A stretch of 64,000 nt of DNA from Duganella zoogloeoides. GTDB lineage: Bacteria; Pseudomonadota; Gammaproteobacteria; Burkholderiales; Burkholderiaceae_D. The position numbers were made by a program, and so were the translations under genes. Under the pieces are notes generated by a model, which saw nothing but the letters and a program-made list of their open reading frames with translations, did not search any database and was not told where the DNA came from. The stretch covers positions 2,976,001 to 3,040,000 of the forward strand of contig NZ_CP140152.1 of the NCBI RefSeq assembly GCF_034479515.1. Direction: 5' to 3'. Positions 41,307 to 44,746 of the stretch are shown piece by piece; within the stretch, counting starts at the first letter, position 1; each line of letters opens with the position of its first letter.

Positions 41307-42416
41307 ATGATGGCAGGACGATATCTTTCTGCGACCGCTATCATGCCCCTCACCGCCCATACGACTCAATCGCGCCCGGAATTTCTGCCCGCTCCGGCCA
41401 GGGTGCCGCCCATGCTGGCGCAGTTTCTGGCCGGCGTCACGGATGGCGACGCGGCGTCTGCGCTGCATGGCGCCGTGGCTGCGGGTCTCGACCGCCTGCC
41501 TCTGCCCGGCAGCGGCGCAACGCTGGCGCGATGGCAGGCGTTGTCCATCGCCGGCGGCCACGACCTGTCGTTCGCCAAACTGTACGAAGGCCATACCGAC
41601 GCCCTCGCCATCCTGGCGGAATTGAACGGCCCGGAAGTCGCCGGCGCCACCTGGGGAGTCTGGTGCGCGGAGCCGCCGGGGCCCGGCGTGGCGCTGCGCA
41701 TGAGCGGCAACGGACGTTACACGCTGTCCGGCCGCAAGCAGTGGTGCTCGGGCGCGGCGGCGATCAGCCACGCGCTGGTGAGCTGCCGCGACGCGGCGGG
41801 CCGCCGCATGCTGGCGGCCGTCAGCCTGCGCCAGCCCGGCGTGGAAGTGACCGACCAGGGCTGGCATGCCGTCGGCATGGCCGGCAGTGCCAGCGTGGAC
41901 GTGGTATTCAACGATGCGCAGGCCGTACCGGTCGGCGAACACGAGTCTTACCTGACCCGGCCCGGCTTCTGGCTCGGTGGCGCCGGCGTGGCCGCATGCT
42001 GGTATGGCGCCGCCCGCGCTATCGGCGAGCGCCTGCTGGCCACCACCCACACCCAGGCCGCCGACAGAAACAGCAAGGCCGATCCGCACCGGCTGGCGCA
42101 CCTGGGCAGCGTGGATATCGCGCTGTCGGGCGCCGCCGCGCTGCTGATCGACAGCGCAGCGGCCATCGATGCCCACCCGCAAGCCGACCACTGCGCGCTG
42201 GCGCTGCGCGCGCGCCTCAACGTGGAAGCCGCAGCGACCACCGTACTGGAACACGTCAACCGTGCGCTCGGCGCCGGCCCGCTGTGCCGCGACGCCGCTT
42301 TTGCGCGGATGGCAGCCGACCTGCCCGTGTTCCTGTGCCAGAGCCACGCGGAACGCGACCTGGCCACGCTGGGTTCGCAACTGGCCAAGAAGGGAGCATC
42401 GCCATGGGCCTTATGA
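41307..42416 (+). CDS. acyl-CoA dehydrogenase-like protein of a four-gene cassette
   Basis: This 369-residue protein is a divergent member of the acyl-CoA dehydrogenase fold. It shows a central beta-domain with WGVWCAEPPGP, YTLSGRKQWCSGAAAISHAL and a C-terminal helical part (LGSVDIALSGAAALL). The usual catalytic glutamate of fatty-acyl enzymes is not obvious, so the substrate may be unusual or the protein may act as a flavin-binding oxidase or desaturase. It begins a cassette with PIG-L deacetylase, methyltransferase and glycosyltransferase genes, and its stop lies inside the start of the deacetylase gene. The start at 41307 is uncertain; ATG 41343 is an alternative. Confidence 0.8.
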   Translation: MMAGRYLSATAIMPLTAHTTQSRPEFLPAPARVPPMLAQFLAGVTDGDAASALHGAVAAGLDRLPLPGSGATLARWQALSIAGGHDLSFAKLYEGHTDALAILAELNGPEVAGATWGVWCAEPPGPGVALRMSGNGRYTLSGRKQWCSGAAAISHALVSCRDAAGRRMLAAVSLRQPGVEVTDQGWHAVGMAGSASVDVVFNDAQAVPVGEHESYLTRPGFWLGGAGVAACWYGAARAIGERLLATTHTQAADRNSKADPHRLAHLGSVDIALSGAAALLIDSAAAIDAHPQADHCALALRARLNVEAAATTVLEHVNRALGAGPLCRDAAFARMAADLPVFLCQSHAERDLATLGSQLAKKGASPWAL

Positions 42417-43216
42417 CAGAAAAATTTGCCCCCGCCTTTGCCAATGAGGGGGTAGCGCACCCGCGCCAGATCGCCGGCGAAGGAACGCCCGACGCCGCAT
42501 GGCAGGCGTGGCACGGCCTGCGCCAGTTGCCACCGGTGGCAGCCCACGAGCTGGTGACGCCAGGCCAGCGCGCCATCATCGTCGCGCCGCATCCTGACGA
42601 CGAGGTGCTGGCCTGCGGCGGGCTGCTGCAACTGCTGGCGGCACAAGGTACCCGCACCGTGGTGGTGGCCGCCACCGACGGCGATGCCAGCCACCCGGGA
42701 TCGGCCATGTACCCGCCGGCGCAACTGGCGCGCTTGCGCGCGAAAGAGACCGAGGCCGCGCTGCGCGCCTTGCTGCCAGCAGGCCAGCCAGTGCCGCAGG
42801 TGATCCGCGCGCGCCTGCCCGATGGCGGCGTCACTAGCCAGGTGGGCGCGCTGCAAACCTTGCTCGAACAGTTGCTGCGTGCCGACGACGTGGTGTTTAC
42901 CACCTGGCGCCAGGACGGCCACCCCGACCACGAAGCCTGTGGCTACGCCACCGCGCAGGCCGCACGCCAGTGCGGCGCCACCGTGGTGGAACTGCCGGTG
43001 TGGACCTGGCACTGGGCCGAACCGGGTGACCGGCGCGTGCCCTGGCACCGCGCGCGCCGGCTGGCGCTCGATGCCGCAGCGCTGCAACGCAAGCGCGACG
43101 CCATTGCCTGTTACGCCACCCAGCTCCATCCAGATCCCAGCACCGGCCAGCCGGCAATCCTGCCGCCGCATGTGCTGGCGCGCCTTACCCATCCTTACGA
43201 AGTCTGCTTCCTATGA
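42404..43216 (+). CDS. PIG-L family N-acyl deacetylase
   Basis: This 270-residue zinc-dependent deacetylase of the PIG-L/LmbE family typically removes an acetyl group from GlcNAc-containing conjugates. The metal site is APHPDDE near residue 63 and HPDHEACGYA further on. The domain ends with PYEVCFL, a usual terminus of this subgroup. The start at 42404 has GGGAG upstream; an ATG at 42413 that overlaps the previous stop (ATGA) is also possible. The gene is followed by an ATGA overlap with the methyltransferase gene. Its substrate is probably made or modified by the glycosyltransferase of the same cassette, which is inference. Confidence 0.9.
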   Translation: MGLMTEKFAPAFANEGVAHPRQIAGEGTPDAAWQAWHGLRQLPPVAAHELVTPGQRAIIVAPHPDDEVLACGGLLQLLAAQGTRTVVVAATDGDASHPGSAMYPPAQLARLRAKETEAALRALLPAGQPVPQVIRARLPDGGVTSQVGALQTLLEQLLRADDVVFTTWRQDGHPDHEACGYATAQAARQCGATVVELPVWTWHWAEPGDRRVPWHRARRLALDAAALQRKRDAIACYATQLHPDPSTGQPAILPPHVLARLTHPYEVCFL

Positions 43217-43839
43217 CCATCACCAACCGGCACACCCATTTCCAGCAGCTCTACACCCAGGACGCCGATCCGTGGAAAGTGCGCCAGCGCTGGTACGAAC
43301 AACGCAAACGCAGCCTGCTGATGGCGTGCCTGCCGCTACAACGCTACCGGCGCGCGTTCGAGCCGGCCTGCGGCAATGGTGAACTGACCGCCGCCTTGGC
43401 CCATCGCGCCGAATACGTGCTGGCCACGGATCTCTCGCCCGAGGCAGTTAGACTGACGCAGCAGCGCATCCACAAGGAGCATCCGAGCGACGCATCGCGC
43501 GTGACGGTGCGCCAGCAGATCGTGCCGCAGGACTGGCCCGAGGACAGTACCTTCGACCTGATCGTCATCAGCGAAATGGCCTATTACCTGCCCGAGCACG
43601 AAGTGGTCAATCTGCGCGATCGCTGCATGGCGTCGCTGGCCGACAACGGCACGCTGGTGCTGTGCCACTGGCGCTGGCCATTTGCCGACCGCCAGATGGA
43701 CAGCGCCGACATCCACGCCCGCTTCGACGGCACGCCGGGCATGCACCGCCTGATGCAGCACAGCGAGGCCGACTTCCTGCTCGACATCTGGTCGCGCAAT
43801 CCGTCGTCCATCGCGCAGCTGGAGGGCCTGGTGCCATGA
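43213..43839 (+). CDS. SAM-dependent methyltransferase, NodS-like
   Basis: This 208-residue class I methyltransferase resembles NodS, the N-methyltransferase of rhizobial Nod-factor synthesis. Evidence is the N-terminal block HFQQLYTQDADPWKVRQRWY and EQRKRSLLMACLP, the SAM-binding EPACGNGELTAALA, ATDLSPEAV, and the ISEMAYYLP motif. NodS acts on a deacetylated amino sugar, which fits a deacetylase directly upstream. Both ends overlap the neighbours by four bases (ATGA), a sign of strict coupling. The methyl acceptor is unknown. The protein has no signal peptide or membrane segment. Confidence 0.88.
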   Translation: MTITNRHTHFQQLYTQDADPWKVRQRWYEQRKRSLLMACLPLQRYRRAFEPACGNGELTAALAHRAEYVLATDLSPEAVRLTQQRIHKEHPSDASRVTVRQQIVPQDWPEDSTFDLIVISEMAYYLPEHEVVNLRDRCMASLADNGTLVLCHWRWPFADRQMDSADIHARFDGTPGMHRLMQHSEADFLLDIWSRNPSSIAQLEGLVP

Positions 43840-44549
43840 TCGGCATCGTCATCCCGGCCCACAACGAAGAACGCTATCTTGACGGCTGCCTGAACGCCAT
43901 CCGGCTCGCTTGCGGTCATCCCGAACTGCGCGGCGAATCGGTCAACGTGGTGGTGGTGCTCGACCATTGCGGCGACGGTTCGCGCGCGATCGCCCTCGCC
44001 CATACCCACGCCCTGCAAGGCGCGGGCTACCGGGTGGAAGCAATCGAGGTCGATGCCCGCAATGTTGGCGCCGCCCGTGCCGCCGGCGCCGAACGCCTGC
44101 TGGCGCACGGCGCGCGCTGGCTGGCCTTTACCGATGCCGACACCCGCGTGGCGCCCGACTGGCTGGCGGCGCAACTGCGCCTCGGTGTGGACGTCGTGTG
44201 CGGCACCGTCTCCGTCGATGACTGGGCGGCACACCATGAAGAACCGGCCCTGCTGCGCCAGCATTTCGAGCTGACTTACACCGACAGCGACGGCCATCGC
44301 CACATCCACGGCGCCAACCTGGGCGTGTGCGCCAAGGCCTATCGCTGCGTGGGTGGCTTCGCGCCGCTGGCATGCAGCGAAGACGTCGCGCTGGTCGAAG
44401 CATTGGAGCACTGCGGCGCCAGCATCGCCTGGAGCGCGGCGCCGCGCGTGACCACCAGCGCCCGCTGCGATGCGCGGGCGCGCGGCGGTTTCGGCGATAC
44501 GCTGATCCAGTATGCGGCGGCGGCATTGCTGCCACCGGTACTGCTTTAA
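43836..44549 (+). CDS. family 2 glycosyltransferase of the four-gene cassette
   Basis: This 237-residue GT2 glycosyltransferase opens with IGIVIPAHNEERYLDGCL. It has the DxD-type metal site FTDADTRVAPDW and the acceptor-side HIHGANLGVCAKAY and CSEDVALVEAL blocks. The usual GT2 fold is complete, but there is no membrane segment, so it may act on a soluble or lipid-linked acceptor at the membrane face. It starts at an ATGA overlap with the methyltransferase gene and converges with a small gene on the other strand. The donor sugar is unknown; N-acetylglucosamine would suit the cassette. Confidence 0.9.
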   Translation: MIGIVIPAHNEERYLDGCLNAIRLACGHPELRGESVNVVVVLDHCGDGSRAIALAHTHALQGAGYRVEAIEVDARNVGAARAAGAERLLAHGARWLAFTDADTRVAPDWLAAQLRLGVDVVCGTVSVDDWAAHHEEPALLRQHFELTYTDSDGHRHIHGANLGVCAKAYRCVGGFAPLACSEDVALVEALEHCGASIAWSAAPRVTTSARCDARARGGFGDTLIQYAAAALLPPVLL

Positions 44550-44746
44550 GCGGCATCCTTGCGGCGCGGCGCCACGCGCTGCTGCGCTTGCGGCGCGCGC
44601 AGCACCTTGTAGGCGATAAAGCGCGGAATGCCGCGGCTCATCGCATATTCTGCGGCGGGATCAATGCCCATCGCGGGGAGCAACTGCTTGGCCTCTTCAA
44701 TGATGGCGGCGGTGGCGGTAGGTTTGCGGCGGTCTGAAAGTGGCAT
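44546..44746 (-). CDS. small basic hypothetical protein (66 aa)
   Basis: This 66-residue basic protein has no recognised domain. Its central part (SDRRKPTATAAIIEEAKQLL, then PAMGIDPAAEYAMSRGIPRF) looks helical, and it ends with an Arg/Lys-rich tail (RVAPRRKDAA). It converges with the glycosyltransferase gene and overlaps it by four bases. Coding is supported by composition and an ordinary start region (GAG before the ATG), not by homology I can name. It could be a small nucleic-acid-binding protein, but that is only a guess. Confidence 0.5.
   Translation of the reverse strand: MPLSDRRKPTATAAIIEEAKQLLPAMGIDPAAEYAMSRGIPRFIAYKVLRAPQAQQRVAPRRKDAA

Follow-up and report, generated by a model that had tools for sequence, protein, structure and literature searches.

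A four-gene cassette in Duganella zoogloeoides and other bacteria, probably for amino-sugar modification, that resembles part of Nod-factor synthesis

In rhizobia, nodB, nodC and nodS, together with nodA, jointly employ a GT2 glycosyltransferase, an N-deacetylase and an N-methyltransferase of the NodS type. The same joint use of three activities is predicted for a cassette of four genes at positions 41307 to 44549 of a 64,000 nt stretch (the window) of the Duganella zoogloeoides chromosome, a complete replicon of 6.32 Mb. Other described enzymes resemble single members of this cassette. Diacetylchitobiose deacetylase, BshB and MshB share the PIG-L family and its metal-binding motifs with one of the four proteins, but their partner genes are different, and the group D monooxygenases DszC, MsuC and SfnB share with another the acyl-CoA dehydrogenase (ACAD) fold family, the lack of the catalytic glutamate, a histidine and an SG motif. 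The four open reading frames, encoding an ACAD-like protein, a PIG-L protein, a NodS-like methyltransferase and a GT2 protein, overlap successively by 13, 4 and 4 bases, exactly as described in an earlier reading made from the sequence without database searches (the sequence-only reading). The same reading knew of no described pathway covering these four genes, and none turned up in the literature that we searched, which included few subscription papers; the cassette is probably a widespread amino-sugar modification system that has neither a name nor a described product in that literature.

The distribution of the cassette was surveyed with a profile of the ACAD-like protein in 398 genomes of Pseudomonadota; other phyla were seen through records of a plasmid collection. 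The profile matched 37 of the 398 genomes at E ≤ 1e-20 and 34 at E < 1e-35 (D. zoogloeoides included), that is, about 1 in 12 of the sampled genomes carry the first gene of the cassette at the stricter threshold. Loci were fetched for 32 of the 33 strongly matching genomes other than our own (G367 was left out). Within 4.5 kb of the ACAD-like gene and on the same strand, the methyltransferase gene was present in 31 of these 32 loci, the PIG-L gene in 27 and the GT2 gene in 25, and 22 loci contained the complete set. Counted by genome, the methyltransferase accompanied the ACAD-like protein in 33 of 34 cases, the exception being G334. In a search of 60 genomes, PIG-L was detected at E < 1e-50 in nine (D. 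zoogloeoides included), and because all nine keep the same four-gene order, the grouping is not a matter of chance. Only 8 of the 36 members of the genus (again including our own) are among the genomes with the cassette, which is therefore patchily distributed. Furthermore, all four genes were found in order in 12 of 16 loci from named genomes (three of the 12 were also counted in the 60-genome search); of the remaining four, L024 has no PIG-L gene and L025 no GT2 gene, and L028 and L029 are broken and likewise without GT2. The sequence-only reading had proposed such a survey and had held that rare co-occurrence would speak against it; since the four genes co-occur widely, this objection does not arise. 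The broken cassettes of L028 and L029 belong to Candidatus Burkholderia humilis and a Caballeronia strain, both presumably leaf-nodule symbionts, and look as if they were eroding.

The overlaps are retained as well. By our own gene models, which are rough in the genomes of the relatives (visibly wrong in L070) and for which starts were chosen close to where the alignment would put them, the first overlap was 13 bases long in 16 of 21 four-gene loci, with a 13/4/4 pattern in nine and a 13/4/1 pattern in five; three genomes entered this count twice (L004/L017, L006/L016 and L010/L020).

The order seen in the window recurs in plasmid-collection records of Acinetobacter, Pandoraea faecigallinarum, Novosphingobium and Kitasatospora, in the last of which only our own profile recognizes GT2; the GT2 match of P. 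vervacti extends over two frames. The Sulfitobacter order is ACAD, PIG-L, methyltransferase, glycosyltransferase; in Bradyrhizobium and Komagataeibacter, the first three genes stand in this order and the glycosyltransferase gene lies on the opposite strand. A rotated order was found in Legionella lytica (PIG-L, methyltransferase, GT2, ACAD), the Paracoccus order is GT2, ACAD, PIG-L, methyltransferase, and a Methylobacterium record contains the ACAD-like gene alone. In Deinococcus, the set of ACAD-like, PIG-L and methyltransferase genes is divided by a TnpB gene, with no glycosyltransferase match. In Rubrobacter, the ACAD-like, methyltransferase and glycosyltransferase genes adjoin a polysaccharide deacetylase gene, and no PIG-L gene was seen in that stretch. 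The cassette occurs beyond Pseudomonadota, in Actinomycetota and, without a glycosyltransferase match, in Deinococcus. Its presence on plasmids and its patchiness suggest horizontal spread; the Acinetobacter plasmids that carry the ACAD-like gene include some from human isolates. Some loci have additional features. At its N-terminus, the Deinococcus ACAD-fold protein (L116, 3448-5820) is extended by about 430 aa that match no Pfam family. In the Rubrobacter variant (L036, 9553-11588), a gene for an FAD-dependent oxidoreductase is inserted between the methyltransferase and glycosyltransferase genes, with arsenic genes farther downstream. In L090, L092 and L093, a second PIG-L gene follows about 0.2 kb past GT2 (past the methyltransferase gene in L093), which suggests two deacetylation steps.

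The surroundings of the cassette point to stress. For families that were picked after looking at the loci, catalase was found 4 times within 10 kb of the cassette in the 34 genomes (expected 0.37), a gene of the trehalose-6-phosphate synthase family 3 times (expected 0.13) and Ku 2 times (expected 0.11). Among 13 annotated plasmid loci, ten had at least one stress gene by our own count, made without a control, of catalase, trehalose, Ku/LigD, CsbD, spore photoproduct lyase and 'general stress protein' genes; two of the ten are from related Pandoraea, and the annotation of the Paraburkholderia sp. D15 locus shows only the methyltransferase and glycosyltransferase genes of the cassette. The L092 cassette comes immediately after a CBM48/alpha-amylase gene; a GH77 gene and two more genes of the alpha-amylase family lie upstream, and we read these genes as glgX, malQ, treY and treZ. 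Expression data are available for Acinetobacter baumannii, in which ACICU_02432-02435, which stand in cassette order and are annotated as glycosyltransferase, SAM (S-adenosylmethionine)-dependent methyltransferase, LmbE and acyl-CoA-dehydrogenase-related protein and marked with one shared letter in the table, were 31- to 62-fold down in both colistin-dependent mutants (PMC5660220, Table 2). The genes for trehalose-6-phosphate synthase, for its phosphatase and for a catalase fell along with them, 33 genes in all were down more than 10-fold, and the accessible part of the paper contains no discussion of the four genes (PMC5660220). We confirmed the A. baumannii cassette in a different strain (L145). 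The accessible part of a paper on the general stress response of Sphingomonas names no acyl-CoA, PIG-L or LmbE gene (PMC6599016). Taken together, the cassette is linked to stress, by its gene neighborhood as computed here and by published co-regulation in one species.

We give about even chances to the view that this patchily spread cassette makes a small cytosolic amino-sugar conjugate under stress. On the best reading, the product would be a stress-induced, N-methylated and possibly N-oxidized amino-sugar conjugate. GT2 would join a sugar to an acceptor, PIG-L would then remove the N-acetyl group from a sugar of the GlcNAc type, and the NodS-like enzyme would methylate the freed amine with SAM. 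The ACAD-fold flavoprotein would be an oxygenase that depends on FMNH2 and on a reductase from elsewhere in the cell; it might oxidize the same nitrogen or another position, and the product could serve as a protectant within a stress program that includes trehalose, catalase and Ku. We infer the substrate, the order of the steps, the N-methylation, the N-oxidation, the protective role and the horizontal spread from gene linkage, family placement and stress linkage, all computed, and from the published co-regulation. An amino sugar is proposed as the substrate class because the nearest characterized relatives of the PIG-L protein and the methyltransferase are diacetylchitobiose deacetylase and NodS, respectively, and because of the Rubrobacter polysaccharide deacetylase and of fusion proteins in which GT2, methyltransferase and NodB-fold domains are combined.

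The proposed first step depends on the GT2 gene (43836-44549, + strand, 237 aa; PF00535, 52.6 bits). The residues of its DxD and ED motifs (D43, D100, D102, E182 and D183) are invariant in 13 sequences, the window protein contains no QxxRW motif, the best match among solved structures is a chondroitin synthase (53 bits), and BLASTP found no significant match to a NodC (E 0.13). Judging from these features, the protein is of a small, non-processive type and is not NodC-like. Alternatively, the cassette might modify a surface glycan (exopolysaccharide, lipooligosaccharide or capsule), with a de-N-acetylated, N-methylated sugar placed on a polymer or lipid-linked oligosaccharide. Such a role would fit the extra GT2 and GT4 genes beside the cassette in some alphaproteobacterial loci, the location of the L107 fusion protein among glycosyltransferase genes and near a Polysacc_synt_2 gene, and the prominence of the cassette genes in the colistin-dependent A. 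baumannii mutants (PMC5660220). However, no flippase, polymerase or lipid-carrier transferase was present among the 13 recurring neighbor clusters scanned (of 17), and by a crude measure, the top 19-residue hydropathy, none of the four proteins (1.72, 1.14, 0.76 and, for GT2, which has no strongly hydrophobic stretch, 1.32) reached the value of a NodC (2.02). We therefore regard surface decoration as possible, but rather unlikely.

The PIG-L gene (42404-43216, + strand, 270 aa) encodes a predicted N-deacetylase of the PIG-L (LmbE) family. The match to PF02585 (96.2 bits) is above the cut-off, the HPDDE...HPDH motifs are intact, and H63, D65, D66, H173 and H176 are invariant in 13 sequences. 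The best PDB matches of the family profile are the diacetylchitobiose deacetylase 8bgn (70.3 bits), TT1542 (70.0 bits) and BshB (52.7 bits). A redox cofactor or thiol of low molecular weight, comparable to bacillithiol or mycothiol, would be in accord with the catalases in the cassette context and with the best NCBIfam match of the window protein, BshB1, which reaches 56 bits against a cut-off of 182.5. Yet, the profile lies nearer to chitobiose deacetylase than to BshB, and the 13 scanned neighbor clusters include no cysteine-adding ligase (the genomes as wholes were not searched for one), so that a thiol product appears very unlikely.

The methyltransferase gene (43213-43839, + strand, 208 aa) encodes a member of the NodS superfamily (PF05401 NodS, one of several methyltransferase domains matched, 44.3 bits versus a gathering cut-off of 24) that is 91% identical in D. 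phyllosphaerae. The NCBIfam NodS equivalog gives only 47.2 bits against a cut-off of 300, and all NCBIfam matches of the four proteins are likewise far under their cut-offs. Among solved structures, the family profile matches 4isc with 200 bits, followed by NodS (3ofj) with 100 bits; 4isc_A, for which the molecule name is just 'Methyltransferase', is apparently a direct member of the family. In a tree of 70 of 85 rows (15 near-duplicate or broken rows were dropped), 52 cassette methyltransferases form one clade with support of 96/96, in which one long, unreliable outgroup row is placed. Five NodS proteins and four further relatives form a separate clade (100/100), the methyltransferase domains of six fusion frames form a third (100/97), and the NodS and fusion clades are weakly joined (88/50). 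By this placement, the cassette protein is a class I SAM methyltransferase of its own clade, beside NodS and outside the NodS clade, and the fusions of GT2, methyltransferase and deacetylase are possibly the nearest kin of NodS.

These fusion proteins were found because the methyltransferase profile matches them, so that they were selected by this domain, which is related to the cassette methyltransferase with E values of about 1e-28 to 1e-36. By Pfam, the 1001 aa protein L107 (7379-10381) combines GT2, NodS and polysaccharide deacetylase domains, separated by long linkers without a Pfam match, and the L110 frame has the NodS and polysaccharide deacetylase domains only. BLASTP found counterparts of all three L107 parts within a single frame in each of L108, L109, L111 and L114, so that five of the six frames are complete. 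The five complete fusions, from alphaproteobacteria-like genomes, thus share three activities of the cassette in one frame, and those of at least L107-L109 and L111 are located among several GT2 genes; unlike in the cassette, a NodB fold replaces PIG-L and the stretches contain no match to the flavoprotein profile. The existence of such fused analogues, together with the retention of the overlapping gene order across phyla, argues against a loose set of unrelated, stress-regulated enzymes without a shared pathway; the absence of PIG-L or GT2 at some loci would fit such a set, which we nevertheless consider improbable.

For the dehydrogenase-like gene (41307-42416, + strand, 369 aa), Pfam recognizes the middle domain PF02770 only (37.0 bits, cut-off 33.3). 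The top PDB matches of the family profile are DszC (84 bits), MsuC (72 bits) and TdsC (72 bits), followed at lower scores by 3m9v, named 'FAD-dependent oxidoreductase' (49 bits), DnmZ (44 bits) and the 'Nitrososynthase' 3mxl (38 bits). We take 3m9v to be the nitrososynthase KijD3. KijD3 and DnmZ N-oxidize amino sugars, and N-oxidation is proposed here for this reason, although sugar nitrososynthases (DnmZ, 3mxl) are more distant kin of the cassette protein than DszC, MsuC and SfnB. Seven of eight members matched the NCBIfam family SfnB, far under all cut-offs in the member shown. With two hidden Markov models (HMMs) built from four sequences each, the group D model scored higher than the dehydrogenase model in 34 of 36 members (median 38.3 versus 7.2 bits), and hhalign placed the family nearer to group D (E 2e-23) than to the dehydrogenases (E 2e-14). 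Four of four control proteins from the own genome that were used in neither HMM preferred the dehydrogenase model, one of them by just 0.3 bit. H96 and G149 are present in 36 of 36 members and S148 in 35, with the same residues in DszC, MsuC and TdsC. The sequence-only reading had noted that an obvious catalytic glutamate is missing; indeed, in the alignment none of the 36 cassette members carries Glu or Asp at the catalytic position (presumably of the MCAD E376 type), whereas three of six aligned dehydrogenase-like proteins of the own genome have Glu there. In an unrooted tree with 36 of the available cassette rows, from which three long dehydrogenases of the own genome were left out, the cassette proteins form a separate clade (100/99). 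Oxygenation is therefore the likelier chemistry, though not proven, and the tree, the absence of NodA, the HMM preference and the missing Glu/Asp led us to give up acyl-chain chemistry as the preferred interpretation. Accordingly, the least probable of the alternatives is that the protein is a genuine dehydrogenase acting on acyl-CoA or acyl-ACP, which would desaturate an acyl chain for an N-acylated, Nod-like lipid; the ACAD Pfam domains would allow this.

Several observations weigh against a stress-induced, N-methylated and possibly N-oxidized amino-sugar conjugate. PIG-L is absent from the cassette in 5 of the 32 loci: in one of them a divergent PIG-L gene lies beside GT2, in three the gene is located elsewhere in the genome (about 13 kb off the cassette in one case), and in the genome of the fifth no PIG-L was found. 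GT2 was not counted in 7 of the 32 loci, in two of which (L075 and L077) it adjoins the cassette on the opposite strand. Stress genes are found near the cassette in a minority of genomes, and the neighbors in the window (GH115, GH67, LacI) are not among them. With the ACAD-like profile, entries named 'acyl-CoA dehydrogenase' (61 bits and lower) outrank the sugar nitrososynthases (49 to 38 bits), which weakens N-oxidation in particular. The window protein alone has weak and mixed matches in PDB (28 bits at most), two of the four being named dehydrogenase type 2 and one CoA dehydrogenase, and two of the 36 members (L031 and L076) prefer the dehydrogenase HMM. In addition, the positions of two conserved histidines of the DszC active site (H92 and H391) are changed: at that of H92 all 36 members have Lys or Arg, and at the C-terminal one, a histidine in MsuC, all 36 have Gln; the neighboring histidine (DszC H97) is retained in all 36. 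Finally, the 13 scanned neighbor clusters contain no flavin reductase. A bolder version of the amino-sugar proposal, that the product is a phylum-crossing stress metabolite of a new chemical type, an N-methyl amino sugar in which a DszC-like flavin oxygenase converts the nitrogen into a hydroxylamine or nitrone, that it acts as a radical-scavenging protectant alongside trehalose and catalase, and that NodS chemistry came from the same older superfamily of stress-glycan enzymes, seems unlikely to us.

In the window, the cassette is preceded by genes for GH115, GH67 and a LacI-type regulator and followed by an AraC-type regulator gene on the opposite strand and by a flavodoxin/FMN-reductase-like gene. 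A functional tie to the upstream genes was considered and rejected: among the 16 named-genome loci, the GH genes are present only in L014 and L015 and a matching LacI gene only in L014. The start of the ACAD-like gene is uncertain, with homology beginning at about residue 37-57 in most relatives and a later start picked by the gene caller. Promoter and terminator scans gave nothing above chance level, and the stretch past GT2 folds no better than shuffled sequences. A short open reading frame of 66 aa, rich in Ala and Arg, lies on the - strand at the end of the GT2 gene (44549-44746).

If the amino-sugar reading is true, Nod-type deacetylase and N-methyltransferase chemistry exists far beyond symbiosis, and the origin of NodS therefore becomes testable; should the product protect against stress, trehalose would have a widespread partner, so far overlooked, in the survival of desiccation and oxidative stress. 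The sequence-only reading had seen a logic like that of Nod-factor synthesis in the cassette and had not anticipated the link to stress. The combination of glycosyltransferase, N-deacetylase and N-methyltransferase is borne out by the kinship with NodS and chitobiose deacetylase, the Rubrobacter variant and the fusions, whereas the acyl modification is not: the ACAD-like protein is closer to the flavin monooxygenases DszC and MsuC, and NodA (PF02474) has no match in the own genome and is absent from 33 of the 34 cassette genomes, with one marginal match (22.1 bits, cut-off 22). The cassette methyltransferase has a DPW...YE segment in common with a NodS and is 31% identical to it over 141 aligned positions. 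The cassette differs from the Nod genes by the lack of NodA and of a processive synthase of the NodC type, by PIG-L in place of NodB (only the fusions and the Rubrobacter locus have a polysaccharide deacetylase of the NodB-type fold), by the added flavoprotein, which forms a clade separate from DszC and MsuC, and by a methyltransferase outside the NodS clade. As far as can be judged from these sequence relationships, the resemblance to Nod-factor synthesis is partial, and the cassette as such is no Nod-factor system.

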